In this document: in pieces, positions 5,523 through 10,395 of the stretch | Layout of the letters: each line of letters begins with the position of its first letter | How positions within the stretch are numbered: position 1 is the stretch's first letter | DNA from: Synechococcus sp. CS-1330 | GTDB lineage: Bacteria > Cyanobacteriota > Cyanobacteriia > PCC-6307 > Cyanobiaceae | Assembly: GCA_025128025.1 (NCBI GenBank) | Contig: JAHLYR010000002.1 | Location: forward strand, 1-64,000 | Length of the DNA: 64,000 nucleotides | Direction: 5' to 3' | Notes under the pieces: model-generated | Told to the model about the DNA's origin: nothing | Databases searched by the model: none | What the model saw: the letters and a program-made list of their open reading frames with translations, nothing else | Program-made: the position numbers and the translations under genes

Positions 5523-5711
5523 ATGGTCCACACCACCCAAGTTTTGACAACCAGCTGCCTGGGACGCACCTGCCTCAAATGGCAGCCTGATGGCGAGCTC
5601 ACCGCCCTTGATCTGCAGCTAGTGCTCGAGCGCCTGGCCCAGGTCGACGAAGATGTGGTCGCCATCCTGGATCGCACTGTCGACGAGATCCCATGTCCCT
5701 CGATCAGCTGA
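5523..5711 (+). CDS. small hypothetical protein upstream of Nif11 gene
   Basis: A 62-residue protein of unknown function with a short Cys-containing N-terminal part (TTSCLGRTCLKWQ) and an acidic helical middle (ALDLQLVLERLAQVDEDVV). Its last 19 bases overlap the start of the Nif11-type gene in another frame, the usual geometry of a translationally coupled pair. A 5-bp CCCCC/GGGGG hairpin lies about 60 bases upstream (5454-5467). No family recognised. The amino-acid composition looks protein-like, not like a shadow frame. Confidence 0.5.
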   Translation: MVHTTQVLTTSCLGRTCLKWQPDGELTALDLQLVLERLAQVDEDVVAILDRTVDEIPCPSIS

Positions 5712-5908
5712 AGGCCTTCCTGGGCAAGGTTCAGGATGACCAGTCGCTCCGGCAAGCCGTGCAAGCCGCTGCTACTGCTGATGATGTGGCCCAGATCGGG
5801 GCAGGCCTGGGCTTTGAATTTTCTGGCGACGAGCTGCTGCGGCTCTCAGGCAAAAAAGTAGGCCGCGTAACGGTCATTAAGCAGGACCTGCCCGGTGAAT
5901 ACAACTAG
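5693..5908 (+). CDS. Nif11-family small protein
   Basis: A 71-residue protein whose first 50 residues (MSLDQLKAFLGKVQDD, then IGAGLGFEFSGDEL) match the helical Nif11 domain, known as a leader peptide of ribosomal natural products and also found as free-standing proteins in picocyanobacteria. There is no double-Gly cleavage site and no Cys/Ser/Thr-rich core after it. The tail is short and ends in LPGEYN, so this looks like a stand-alone Nif11 protein, not a prochlorosin-type precursor. No lanthipeptide synthetase lies nearby. It overlaps the preceding 62-residue gene by 19 bases. Confidence 0.8.
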   Translation: MSLDQLKAFLGKVQDDQSLRQAVQAAATADDVAQIGAGLGFEFSGDELLRLSGKKVGRVTVIKQDLPGEYN

Positions 5909-5969: not shown

Positions 5970-6680
5970 ATGGGCAAGCGAGCGGAACTGATTTCGGCGA
6001 TTGGCTTAGGGCTCGTCGTAGCAGCTGCGGGCAGCTTCACCGCTCTGGCCCGCCCCATGGGTGGTGGTGGCTTTGGCGGACCGGGCTCCGGTGCGGGGGT
6101 GCGTCCAGGGGCGGGCTGGGGTGCCCCTGGCGCCGGAATGAGACCGGGGGCTGGTGTGGGAGCACCCGGAGTAGGGGCGCCCGGAATAGGTGCACCCGGA
6201 GCGGGGGCTCGCCCTGGTGTGGGCTGGGGTGCCCCTGGCGCTGGTCTCACCCGCGCCCCAGGGGCCTCTGCCTGGAATCCGGCCTGGGGCCGCCAAGGCG
6301 GTTACTGGTCGTCGCGCACCTGGAGCACCGGCTGGTACCGGCCCTATCCAGCGGCCTGGCCCTGGTGGGGAGCCAGTTCGGTGGCCTGGGGAGTGGGCAG
6401 CTTGGCCACGGCTGCTGCAATCACCAGTGCTGTCGACGCAGCTGCTTATCAGCAGTCAACCGTGATCGTGGTGCCCCAAACCAGCCTGCAGCTCGACTAC
6501 GGCTCGGTTCAAGCCCTGCCACCTAATCGAGTTCAGTTTGCCTACGGCGTTGCCGGTATGCCCCTGATGACAGCAACCAGCGATTGCAAGCAGGGGCTGA
6601 TCAATGGCATGGCACCGACCACGGCTGACCAGGCCCAGGTGCTCAATGCCAGCTGCCACATCGCCTACGGCTCCAACTGA
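5970..6680 (+). CDS. secreted Gly/Pro-repeat protein
   Basis: A 236-residue protein with a Sec-type signal (MGKRAELISAIGLGLVVAAAGSFTALA, cleavage near residue 27-28). About 70 residues follow of Gly/Pro/Ala repeats (GAPGAGMRPGAGVGAPGVGAPG) with two near-copies of the DNA unit GGGCTGGGGTGCCCCTGG. Then comes a Trp/Tyr-rich stretch (SWYRPYPAAWPWWG-like), an Ala/Val-rich hydrophobic segment (about 140-165), and a compact C-terminal part ending in a Cys pair (SDCKQG, NASCHIAYG) that could form a disulfide. Probably a cell-envelope or surface protein. The repeat tract is low complexity and likely variable among strains. Function unknown. Confidence 0.7.
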   Translation: MGKRAELISAIGLGLVVAAAGSFTALARPMGGGGFGGPGSGAGVRPGAGWGAPGAGMRPGAGVGAPGVGAPGIGAPGAGARPGVGWGAPGAGLTRAPGASAWNPAWGRQGGYWSSRTWSTGWYRPYPAAWPWWGASSVAWGVGSLATAAAITSAVDAAAYQQSTVIVVPQTSLQLDYGSVQALPPNRVQFAYGVAGMPLMTATSDCKQGLINGMAPTTADQAQVLNASCHIAYGSN

Positions 6681-6701: not shown

Positions 6702-6925
6702 TTGCGGATTCGGGCGCTGGAAAAGGGCGATCTCGCCGACGTCATCGCCTGGGCCCGCGCTGAACACTTCGCGCCGGGCCAGGGAGACGAAGCCATTTAC
6801 CGCCATACCGACGCTGCTGCAGTTGGGCTTTGCGATGGTCCCATGGCACTGATGATGTATCGGGGCAGCCTGCCGGTGGTCCCCTGGGCGATGTCTACGG
6901 GTTGGCCTGCCTGGAGCTGGGCTGA
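6702..6925 (+). pseudogene. decayed GNAT acetyltransferase remnant
   Basis: From TTG 6702 the frame reads MRIRALEKGDLADVIAWAR, then HFAPGQGDEAIYRHTD, the typical N-terminal part of a GNAT N-acetyltransferase. After about 45 residues the similarity stops. A different frame then gives GDVYGLACLELG followed by TGA at 6923-6925, which resembles the end of a GNAT protein. The middle of the domain, including the acetyl-CoA loop, is absent. The simplest reading is an internal deletion plus frameshift in a former gene of about 150 codons. It lies 20 bases after the Gly/Pro protein and runs into the 3' end of the opposing gene. Confidence 0.5.
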
Positions 6926-7777: not shown

Positions 7778-8359
7778 TCACCTAGGCGACTCGCGAGCCA
7801 CGGCCAGGGCAGCCAGCAGGCCGCCGCCAAAACCGCTGAAGTGGCCAATCCAGCTCACCCCTGGCGGTGAAAAAATTGGCAGCAGGCTTGGCAGCACCCC
7901 CGCATAGGTGACCAGGGCCAGCACCGAGAGGAGCAAGGAGAGGGGCCGCTTCTCTAGCCAGCCGATCAGCAGCAGGTAGCCCAGCAGCCCGTAAACGACC
8001 CCGGAGAGTCCGTGACTGCCATTGGGCCAGAGCAGCCATACGGGAATAGCCGTGGCATAAACCCCCAACCAAACGGCCAGATAGTCGCGGCGGCCGCGCA
8101 GCAATACCAGCCAGGAGAGGGGCAGAAAGGTAAGCGAATTGGCCAGGAGATGGCCAAAACCGCTATGGCTGAAGGGGGCTGTCAGCACCTCGAGGAAGGA
8201 GCCTCCGGGCGTCATCGGCAGGTTCCAGTTGCCACCGAAAACCAGCTGGTCCACCAGCTCCTGCAGCCAGGGAATCAGCAAGATCAGCGGCGGAAGCAGC
8301 AGATTGAAACCGGCTCGCGCGATCCAGCGATCCAGACGTTGGGGTAGAGATTCGCTCAC
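7778..8359 (-). CDS. rhomboid-family intramembrane serine protease
   Basis: Polytopic membrane protease of about 193 residues that cleaves transmembrane substrates. Seen in order: the HxxxN motif in HLLANSLTF, the catalytic serine in GLSGVVYGLLGY and the catalytic histidine in IGHFSGFGGGLLA, all inside hydrophobic helices. The start is taken at GTG 8359, whose last bases form GTGA with the stop of the upstream gene; GTG 8368 would add three residues. It is the last gene of a three-gene run in which each start overlaps the previous stop, so expression is probably coupled to the PPC-glutaredoxin fusion. Substrate unknown. Confidence 0.88.
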   Translation of the reverse strand: MSESLPQRLDRWIARAGFNLLLPPLILLIPWLQELVDQLVFGGNWNLPMTPGGSFLEVLTAPFSHSGFGHLLANSLTFLPLSWLVLLRGRRDYLAVWLGVYATAIPVWLLWPNGSHGLSGVVYGLLGYLLLIGWLEKRPLSLLLSVLALVTYAGVLPSLLPIFSPPGVSWIGHFSGFGGGLLAALAVARESPR

Positions 8360-8922
8360 GGCTCGCACTTGAAGCTGCAGCGCAGCATGGCAAGGGCTTC
8401 ATCAGGCAGGCCCAGCAGGCGATCCAGCCAGGGGGCGCCGCACGGCGGCACACTCGCCACCCCCACCAGCAGGGCCGTGCCATCGGCGCTAAGGGGCTGG
8501 CCCACAGCCCGGTGGCGTTGCCCCTGCGCCGAACCCGTGCTCAGCAGGGTGTCGATCAGCAGGTCGGGGGCGCGGTAGAGCCCAGCAATGCGGAAGCGAA
8601 AGCGGGCCCGGAAGCGCAGCTGCACAGCACCAGTTGCTGAATCGATGCTGCCCGCGAGCTGCTCAGGGGCGATGGCGATCTCCAAGCCCGGGGGCAGGGG
8701 CAGTCCCAGCACCCGAGTGGTGCGCCAGTTGAGCGGAGGAATCAACAGGGTTGAGGGCTCGAAGCTCACGGTTCGCGGGCCGTCAGCTGGTCCTGGGCCG
8801 AGCTCGCCGATTCCGCCGCCGCCGCTGGCGTCGTAGCTGAAGTGGGGATAGGCGCCGATGGCCAGGCCACAACCCTTACTGGTGCATAGCTGCAGCGTGG
8901 CAACCTCTAACTCAGGGCTCAC
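8356..8922 (-). CDS. conserved hypothetical protein, middle gene of coupled operon
   Basis: A 188-residue protein that I do not recognise. It begins at GTG 8922, forming a GTGA overlap with the stop of the PPC-glutaredoxin gene. A longer open frame extends upstream to 9102 but reads as an Arg/His-rich shadow of that gene. Visible features: an early Cys pair (LCTSKGCGLAIG), a Gly run (ASGGGGIGELG), and a beta-rich middle with alternating charged and hydrophobic residues (LRFRARFRFRIAGLY). A C-terminal helix contains the last Cys residues. Probably a soluble beta-barrel-like protein. Its genetic coupling to a redox-domain protein and an intramembrane protease is the best clue to its role. Confidence 0.65.
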   Translation of the reverse strand: MSPELEVATLQLCTSKGCGLAIGAYPHFSYDASGGGGIGELGPGPADGPRTVSFEPSTLLIPPLNWRTTRVLGLPLPPGLEIAIAPEQLAGSIDSATGAVQLRFRARFRFRIAGLYRAPDLLIDTLLSTGSAQGQRHRAVGQPLSADGTALLVGVASVPPCGAPWLDRLLGLPDEALAMLRCSFKCEP

Positions 8923-9494
8923 AGGCTGCGCAGCACGTCTAATTCGCCGCGGCTGTGCAGTTCGGCCAGTTCGTTGTAGCCACCAATAGAAACGCCATCG
9001 ATGAAGAGCTGGGGCACCGGACCCGTCTCTTCGGGTTCGATTTCCACGAAGGCAATGCCCAGGGTGCGCAGCATGCGCAGGGCCCGGCGCGAGAAGGGGC
9101 ATTCCGGTCTGCCGGCGATTTCAACTCGCGGTTCCCTGCTGGCTGATGCAGTAGGTGCACCCGTGTCGGTGCTGAGTAGGCCCACCAGCAGGTCGGCGCC
9201 GCGCAGCACCAGGGTGCCGTGCTCGAGGTGGCCGCCCCACACTTGGCAGCTGGCATCGGAGAAGCTCAAGTGCAGGTGCACCCCATCCGGGCTGATCGTG
9301 CCCTGCAGGGTGATGATCTCCAGCTCACCAGCCAAAACCGTGGGTGCGCTTTTGCCGGGGCAGGCAAAGGCGGCTTGGGAGAGGTTGCCCACCACACTCA
9401 GCACAAATCCGCCGGCGTTGTGATCAAGGGCCAGCTGCTCCAGGCTGCGGCGCACATCACTGCCGGCTTCGAGGTGCAGCGGCACGGCACGCAT
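8919..9494 (-). CDS. PPC (DUF296)-glutaredoxin fusion protein
   Basis: A two-domain protein of 191 residues. Residues about 1-110 resemble the PPC/DUF296 fold: a beta-rich core with HLHLSFSD (about 73-80) and GGHLEHG (about 87-93), the conserved His-containing pattern seen in bacterial PPC proteins and plant AT-hook PPC domains. After a short linker, residues about 123-191 form a glutaredoxin: the active site is CPFS (Cys132, Ser135), the cis-proline segment is VPQLFIDG, and the GSH-binding GG follows (about 171-172). CPFS lacks the second cysteine, so a monothiol mechanism or Fe-S/GSH binding is plausible. First gene of a coupled run with the 188-residue protein and rhomboid. Domain order is seen directly; function is inferred. 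Confidence 0.8.
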   Translation of the reverse strand: MRAVPLHLEAGSDVRRSLEQLALDHNAGGFVLSVVGNLSQAAFACPGKSAPTVLAGELEIITLQGTISPDGVHLHLSFSDASCQVWGGHLEHGTLVLRGADLLVGLLSTDTGAPTASASREPRVEIAGRPECPFSRRALRMLRTLGIAFVEIEPEETGPVPQLFIDGVSIGGYNELAELHSRGELDVLRSL

Positions 9495-9558: not shown

Positions 9559-10395
9559 ATGGCCCCGGATTCCGCCCTCGCTGCGCTCAACCTGGCGGTA
9601 GTGGGTCATGTGGAGTGGGTGAGCTTTGTGGCCGTGGAGCAGCTGCCAGTTGCTGGCTCGATCGACCGGGCCACAACTTTTCTGGAGGAACCCGCCGGTG
9701 GTGGGGCGGTGGTGGCGGTGCAGCTGGCCCGTCTCAGTGGCAAGCGGGTGAGGTTTTTCACCTCCCTGGGCCGGGACGCCACCGGCGAGCGCTCAGCGGA
9801 GCGACTCACTGAGCTGGGCCTTGATCTGGAGGTGGCCTGGCGGGATGCCCCAACCCGCCGGGGCGTGAGCTTTGTGGATCGGGCCGGTGACCGCAGCATC
9901 ACCGTGATCGGCGAGCGACTGGCCCCTTTGGCTAGGGATCCACTCCCCTGGGCTGATCTGGCTGGCTGCGATGGCGTCTTTGTGACCGCGGCCGACGCGG
10001 CAGCCCTGCAGCACTGCCGCCGGGCCCGGCTGCTCGGCGTTACGCCACGGGTTGGCTTGCCGCTATTAGAGGCCAGCGGGGTGAGCTGCGATGCCTTGAT
10101 CGGCAGCGCCCTCGATCCTGGTGAGCAGGTGCCTGCTGGCGCTCTATCGCGCCCCCCGCGACTGCGCATCGCCACCGAAGGGGCTGCTGGTGGCTGGAGC
10201 GAACCCGGCGGGCGCTTCGCAGCCCAGGCCCTGGAGGCCCCGCCGGTCGACAGTTATGGCTGCGGCGACAGCTTTGCAGCCGGGGTGATGGCAGGACTGG
10301 CGGCTGGTTGGAGCGCAGCCGCAGCAATAGGCCTGGGTGCCCGCTGCGGCGCCGAGTGCGCCGTTGCCTTTGGTCCCTACAACCGCCCTAACTGA
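9559..10395 (+). CDS. PfkB-family carbohydrate kinase
   Basis: A 278-residue ribokinase-like sugar kinase, somewhat short for the family (usually about 300). The N terminus (LAVVGHVEWVSFVAVEQLP) starts the Rossmann core, GGGAVVAVQLARLSG is the sugar-contact helix region, and DSYGCGDSFAAGVMAGL near residue 232 is PfkB signature 2. In that signature the final Asp is the catalytic base and GCGD replaces the usual GAGD. The N-terminal GGN motif reads AGGG. The substrate cannot be told from sequence. It is divergent from the PPC-glutaredoxin operon and convergent with the VOC gene, with an 8-base overlap of the 3' ends. Confidence 0.85.
   Translation: MAPDSALAALNLAVVGHVEWVSFVAVEQLPVAGSIDRATTFLEEPAGGGAVVAVQLARLSGKRVRFFTSLGRDATGERSAERLTELGLDLEVAWRDAPTRRGVSFVDRAGDRSITVIGERLAPLARDPLPWADLAGCDGVFVTAADAAALQHCRRARLLGVTPRVGLPLLEASGVSCDALIGSALDPGEQVPAGALSRPPRLRIATEGAAGGWSEPGGRFAAQALEAPPVDSYGCGDSFAAGVMAGLAAGWSAAAAIGLGARCGAECAVAFGPYNRPN

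Follow-up and report, generated by a model that had tools for sequence, protein, structure and literature searches.

Proteins that carry both a PPC (PCC/DUF296) domain and a glutaredoxin have been noticed before, as Alves et al. 2009 (PMC2679010) list a DUF296-GRX architecture. In its passages on this architecture, that study describes a protein like the one reported here (both domains, bacteria only, a class CPYC glutaredoxin), words it in terms of a 'CPYC class' and a 'zinc finger like motif', and suggests gene regulation via DNA binding; the same passages hold no mention of a cysteine pair, a lost PPC tail or pocket, a restriction to one family, or a loss of glutaredoxin helix alpha2. Each half also has described relatives of its own. 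Stand-alone prokaryotic PPC proteins (PF03479; 2p6y, 2hx0, 2nmu, 2h6l, 2dt4, 3htn, 3hwu) share with the fusion their fold, three histidines, a GGH motif, and D13, E59 and G65, and class I glutaredoxins (EcGrx3, Synechocystis GrxA ssr2061 and the genome's own CPFC glutaredoxin) share its thioredoxin-like fold, CPxS/C active site, cis-proline and GG motif. Plant class III ROXY9 (PMC11724882) offers a works-like analogy only: its helix 2 and loop are altered, it scaffolds glutathione poorly and it acts in regulation and not as a general oxidoreductase, but it differs in its CC-type site, is plant-specific and is not close by sequence. In peroxiredoxin-glutaredoxin fusions, too, the glutaredoxin is covalently attached to the cysteine-containing protein it serves, though the partner here is a PPC domain and not a peroxidase. 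Our literature search found nothing on the fusion gene in Prochlorococcus, nor any study of the fusion protein. Judged by the literature searched, the two cysteines confined to the fused form, the PPC domain's loss of its pocket and tail, the limitation to one family, the glutaredoxin without alpha2 and the drift of its active site appear to be new.

The fusion gene and its distribution

Within the window, by which we mean the whole 64,000-nucleotide stretch of Synechococcus sp. CS-1330 DNA analysed here, the minus-strand open reading frame running from 9494 to 8919 is one gene of 191 aa, with its ATG at 9494 and its TGA at 8921-8919. The earlier note had read this protein as an N-terminal PPC/DUF296 domain joined to a C-terminal glutaredoxin, and the profile searches that it proposed bear this out above curated cut-offs: PF03479 (PCC) matches residues 3-104 (E 1.5e-20, 74.1 bits against a gathering cut-off of 25) and PF00462 (glutaredoxin) matches residues 124-153 (E 7.1e-7, 29.8 bits against 22.9). 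NCBIfam glutaredoxin-3 models match residues 124-188, under their equivalog cut-offs. The motifs that the note had named are present as well (C132-P-F-S, cis-proline P161, G171-G172), such that the C-terminal half combines the class I profile match with a CPx[CS] site, a cis-proline and a GG pair, and DUF296 and a CPYC-class glutaredoxin lie within one bacterial protein. The features are as follows.

8919..9494, minus strand: PPC(PCC/DUF296)-glutaredoxin fusion gene, 191 aa (ORF; Pfam PF03479 and PF00462; family-wide conservation)
9183..9488, minus strand: PPC/PCC domain, residues 3-104 (PF03479; model residues 1-111 align to 2p6y, Z 11.6)
9360..9362, minus strand: Cys45 codon (F-x-C-P-G), invariant in the fused form (69/69 fused; never Cys in 27 stand-alone PPCs)
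9246..9248, minus strand: Cys83 codon (SDxxC-x-V-x-GGH), invariant in the fused form (69/69 fused; Gly in 27/27 stand-alone)
9228..9278, minus strand: His73-x-His75...Gly87-Gly88-His89, putative metal site (H73, H75 and H89 invariant in fused and stand-alone forms)
9132..9173, minus strand: variable Ala/Pro/Ser/Thr-rich linker, residues 108-121 (length 7-34, mean entropy 3.18 bits)
8922..9131, minus strand: short-form glutaredoxin domain, residues 122-191 (Pfam/NCBIfam; pLDDT 81-88 over 121-180; glutaredoxin structure matches)
9090..9101, minus strand: active site C132-P-F-S135 (sequence; Cys 69/69, fourth position S/C/T)
9024..9041, minus strand: site of about 12 missing residues (helix alpha2) relative to marine/Prochlorococcus-like fusions (alignment; AlphaFold model)
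8356..8922, minus strand: next gene, family not recognised; its GTG start overlaps the TGA of the fusion (GTGA) (sequence)

To evaluate the domain pair across picocyanobacteria, a survey the note had also called for, we searched 300 genomes of the same GTDB family, 269 of which gave a match at E <= 1e-3. About 239 of the 300 carry a fusion relative, Prochlorococcus-like genomes included, as counted on the basis of E below 1e-25, the level attained by fused proteins. Named relatives are Cyanobium and Synechococcus strains, and the genomes of group g18 (1.6-1.7 Mb) are Prochlorococcus-like, as we infer from their size. Five further relatives whose match ends near residue 120 are fusions with longer linkers. 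A sequencing error joining two genes was rejected as an explanation because the single open frame recurs family-wide, from 96% down to ~35-40% identity. Beyond the family, a 386-genome sample of the phylum yielded no fusion, its matches covering the PPC half only or the glutaredoxin half only, and as a statement on the genomes sampled the fusion looks specific to the family. The family looks to be Cyanobiaceae, to which Earth's most abundant phototrophs belong, and even its streamlined, Prochlorococcus-size genomes retain the fusion.

Two side results concern its absences and its origin. All nine listed genomes of genus group g9, most of them at least 95% complete, are without the fusion, as are several genomes of groups g19 and g24. 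A phage or plasmid origin was considered and rejected, as viral contigs hold no relative and phage and plasmid records give stand-alone PPC matches only, none of which spans 80% of the query.

Fused-only cysteines and a rebuilt PPC half

We compared 69 distinct fused sequences, reaching down to ~35-40% identity, with 27 stand-alone PPCs, some of them cyanobacterial and the others taken from Burkholderiales, Paracoccus and Vibrio. C45, C83, H73, H75, D80, G88 and H89 are invariant across the aligned fusions. Position 45, Cys in every fusion, is F/L/Y/W or another residue in the stand-alone proteins, and position 83 is Cys in every fusion versus Gly in every stand-alone protein. Both cysteines recur in 5 additional long-linker fusions and are missing also from further glutaredoxin-less PPCs of the same family. 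Bar pieces cut at contig ends, we met no fusion without C45/C83, and no cysteine-type PPC without a glutaredoxin in genomes lacking the fusion, which hold the stand-alone type only. Exactly three cysteines (C45, C83, C132) are found in 39 of the 69 fusions, the window protein among them. With this cysteine pair, which only fusions have, the loose idea of a 'redox regulator' becomes testable at C45, C83 and C132.

The remainder of the PPC half has been partly kept and partly rebuilt. H73, H75, H89 and the GGH motif are common to fused and stand-alone proteins, so the three histidines typical of prokaryotic PPCs persist, and E91 is nearly invariant (68/69) in the fused form only. Stand-alone PPCs, by comparison, hold an essentially invariant R44, A46, T98, T99 and E101 together with a C-terminal tail (R..D..TG[YF].EL), whereas in fused PPCs these five positions are for the most part Q/A, P, K/R, G and D and the tail is missing, which leaves them without the marks (R44, T98-T99, E101, tail) of the stand-alone prokaryotic subfamily. 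As the aligned rows are relatives, these counts represent lasting constraint and not many independent origins: the cysteine gain, the tail loss and the fusion may each be one old event, their association thus being one evolutionary case followed by later constraint. A PPC domain rebuilt after fusion may help reveal what prokaryotic PPC domains do.

Structure prediction, with the window protein and 7 relatives as input, placed these residues on a PPC fold. Over residues 1-111 the AlphaFold model, which is weak in this half (block pLDDT 51-77), aligns to 2p6y (Z 11.6), 2hx0 (Z 9.7) and 2h6l (Z 9.3). Cys45 stands at the end of a strand, and Cys83 at the turn of a hairpin further on. The PPC strand arrangement is printed as b1-a-b3-b7-b4-b5-b6-b2 (PMC4209074); if this is the sheet order, it does not place C45 and C83 adjacent within one subunit, and a simple intra-subunit disulfide between them is therefore doubtful. 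The pair may instead form a disulfide across subunits, act as two separate sites of glutathionylation or ligate a metal; a direct meeting of C45 and C83 is the weakest step of the mechanism proposed below.

A drifted, shortened glutaredoxin half

The linker that joins the halves is rich in A/P/S/T, runs to more than its usual 7-34 residues in some fusions, and is far more variable than the domains that it connects, whose mean entropies are 1.06 and 1.44 bits (the latter for the glutaredoxin half). Beyond it, C132, P161, G171 and G172 are invariant in all 69 fusions, and the active site otherwise drifts: position 134 is Trp, Phe or Tyr, position 135 is Ser in 50, Cys in 17 and Thr in 2, and the forms seen are CPWC, CPWS, CPFS, CPYS, CPYT and CAWS. 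The earlier description of a monothiol-like CPFS site stands as to the residues, but the site is best described as a drifted class I (CPxC/S) form; marine relatives have the dithiol CPWC, and none of the fusions seen has CGFS. Class II (CGFS) glutaredoxins also have a lengthened loop ahead of the Cys and a WP motif; membership of that class is further contradicted by the missing WP motif and by Grx4 equivalog models that score far under their cut-off.

A further departure from class I lies between strand beta2 and the cis-proline, a stretch that holds 25 residues in 34 sequences and 12-13 in the other 35, the window protein included. What is missing is helix alpha2 and most of the loop preceding the cis-proline, a basic loop that, like the helix, is present in the window genome's own CPFC glutaredoxin. 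The AlphaFold model, firmer here than in the PPC half, has the order strand-helix-strand-strand-strand-helix-helix and shows no helix between the strands at 149-152 and 162-165; over 69-72 residues it aligns, at Z about 10, to glutaredoxins of solved structure, some with glutathione bound. The note had spoken of intact cis-Pro and GG motifs, which holds, but the domain as a whole is not complete, as the helix and basic loop are missing.

On a tree built with the alpha2 columns left out, the deletion requires two changes and the CxxC form changes once. A single clade of deleted forms gives p-AU 0.433, such that a strictly single loss is neither shown nor rejected by these sequences. The basic pair of the genome's own glutaredoxin (RRSVP) is lost in most of the family, and in the window's clade the helix is lost too. 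Most fusions, alpha2 present or absent, have Ala at the beta1 Tyr position. In the alignment with EcGrx3, the genome's own CPFC glutaredoxin leads to the same conclusion as EcGrx3. In EcGrx3 it is beta1 Tyr6 that contacts alpha2 Arg46 (PMC12199019).

The glutathione scaffold site requires thioredoxin-fold helix 2 and the basic loop (PMC7138851, PMC11724882), and what remains of the glutathione contacts in the window's clade is the cis-proline backbone and the GG-x-[D/N] end. This loss of helix and loop suggests that glutaredoxins of the clade have given up general deglutathionylation and may act mainly on their own PPC partner. On our inference, ordinary glutathionylated substrates would be used poorly and the glutaredoxin would have a specialised partner, for which the tethered PPC half is the simplest candidate. 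The window genome also has separate glutaredoxins, including canonical CPFC and CGFS ones, and general duties are therefore covered. A lysine before the active site was tried as a marker of lost glutathione binding and set aside, as the genome's own CPFC glutaredoxin also lacks it. The family thus offers natural variants of the scaffold site (alpha2 present or absent, CxxC or CxxS) within one orthologous protein. A PF03479 scan of the genome returned the fusion and, on a different contig (2309-2485), a single stand-alone copy that is broken: it has an internal TAA, and its N-terminal 40 residues are unmatched.

Candidate mechanism, alternatives and gene neighbourhood

To interpret these features together, our best reading, held tentatively, is a tethered and mostly monothiol glutaredoxin that services the cysteines of its own PPC domain. 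The PPC half would probably be trimeric, as known prokaryotic PPC proteins are, with a three-histidine metal site kept, the old pocket (R44, T98-T99, E101 and the C-terminal tail) presumably dismantled, and C45 and C83 added. C132 of the glutaredoxin, borne on a linker that would be flexible, would make and break mixed disulfides at C45/C83, whether by glutathionylation or by a disulfide within or between subunits, and the state of the trimer (metal, ligand or partner binding) would follow the cellular glutathione/redox poise. The resolving thiol would have to be glutathione or a PPC cysteine because the glutaredoxin is monothiol in most members. A more specific version, which we consider possible though rather improbable, makes the alpha2-less glutaredoxin a dedicated intramolecular or cross-subunit partner whose resolving cysteine moved from the CxxC site to the PPC domain, giving a glutathione-gated three-thiol switch; the same version would limit the switch to Prochlorococcus, marine Synechococcus and Cyanobium. 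The note had proposed a redox-sensing or Fe-S/GSH-dependent regulator, and the two invariant fused-only cysteines favour the redox part of that proposal.

Should C45 and/or C83 instead join the three histidines, and perhaps the fused-only E91, in a site of the PPC trimer, the protein would be a metal or Fe-S cofactor protein to which the glutaredoxin and glutathione deliver, or with which they share, the cofactor. We regard this as unlikely. The conservation of H73, H75, H89 and E91 would suit it, as would the title 'metal-containing protein' of the solved PPC relative AF0104 (2h6l), and some class I glutaredoxins without the second active-site cysteine do bind [2Fe-2S] (PMC7138851), but the marine members are CPWC and a second cysteine usually prevents cluster binding (PMC7138851), the glutaredoxin lies outside the CGFS class with its WP motif, and the alpha2 loss takes away the glycine-carboxylate contacts of glutathione. 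In Prochlorococcus-like genomes genes for a ferritin and for an ABC-transporter ATPase are found at a distance of 2.5-5 kb, although this linkage is loose, with opposite-strand genes between, and is not found in the window's lineage.

An enzyme for glutathione-linked substrates, with the PPC domain as metal-dependent catalyst and the glutaredoxin removing or accepting the glutathionyl group, seems quite unlikely to us. The three-histidine site is kept, and the invariant polar set of stand-alone PPCs (R, T-T, E, R..D..T..E) resembles a pocket and not a basic DNA face; however, the polar residues other than the histidines are exactly those that the fusion lacks, which makes an inherited catalytic role unlikely, and we found no conserved metabolic operon. 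A redox-sensing DNA-binding regulator, a reading along the lines of the earlier note and of Alves et al. 2009 in which the state of the glutaredoxin would control DNA binding by the PPC half, we judge very unlikely. PPC proteins are annotated 'DNA-binding' and plant PPC domains adjoin AT-hooks and contact transcription factors (PMC4209074), but in the plant study it is the AT-hook that contacts DNA, the PPC domain serving in nuclear localisation and in contacts with proteins (PMC4209074). The PPC half here is acidic (net -5 in the window protein, family mean -4.8; protein pI 5.2), has lost residues invariant in stand-alone PPCs, and stands apart from AT-hook/PPC (AHL) proteins, as the window protein has no AT-hook-like motif and the 69 family members show one chance-like match, which leaves the suggested DNA target unsupported. 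Least probable of all is a glutaredoxin half drifting as a passenger without redox function: its fourth active-site residue and helix alpha2 do vary or decay, the helix being lost in a large clade, but four residues are invariant, its mean entropy is near that of the PPC half, and it is kept in streamlined genomes.

Gene neighbourhoods were compared for functional partners of the fusion. In the window the fusion gene and a pfkB-type kinase gene (9559-10395) point away from each other, and downstream of the fusion follow the 8356-8922 gene, for which we found no Pfam or NCBIfam match, and then a rhomboid gene. Of 28 loci, 12 have the 8356-8922 gene close to the fusion, arranged in three different ways, a count of linkage alone. 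The kinase and rhomboid linkages do not extend to Prochlorococcus-like genomes, where pgsA, the ABC ATPase and the ferritin are among the neighbours, together with a GNAT acetyltransferase in most of them and a gene that by eye resembles endonuclease III. Among the loci compared there is no operon partner conserved family-wide, in keeping with the note, which named no partner.

Several minor observations were made nearby and in relatives. The window holds a remnant of a GNAT two-domain acetyltransferase gene (6702-6922, plus strand) in which the first ~38 and last ~25 residues are recognisable and the middle is gone; the gene is intact in a close relative (locus L084, 2958-3836, 292 aa). At 5970-6680 (plus strand) lies a Gly/Pro/Ala-repeat-rich protein (GAPGAGxRPG repeats) without a Pfam match; next to it, at 5693-5908, is a gene for a Nif11-type peptide. 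In several same-family genomes the stand-alone PPC genes lie within long open frames (about 331-335 aa at loci L086 and L135), and the L086 frame runs from an N-acetyltransferase-like segment into the PPC domain, as a fusion or a tight overlap. Lastly, a GlmU frame (nucleotidyltransferase and hexapeptide; locus L087, 418-2343, genome G466, also G585) runs into a C-terminal stand-alone-type PPC, an apparent GlmU-PPC fusion seen in two genomes of one genus.
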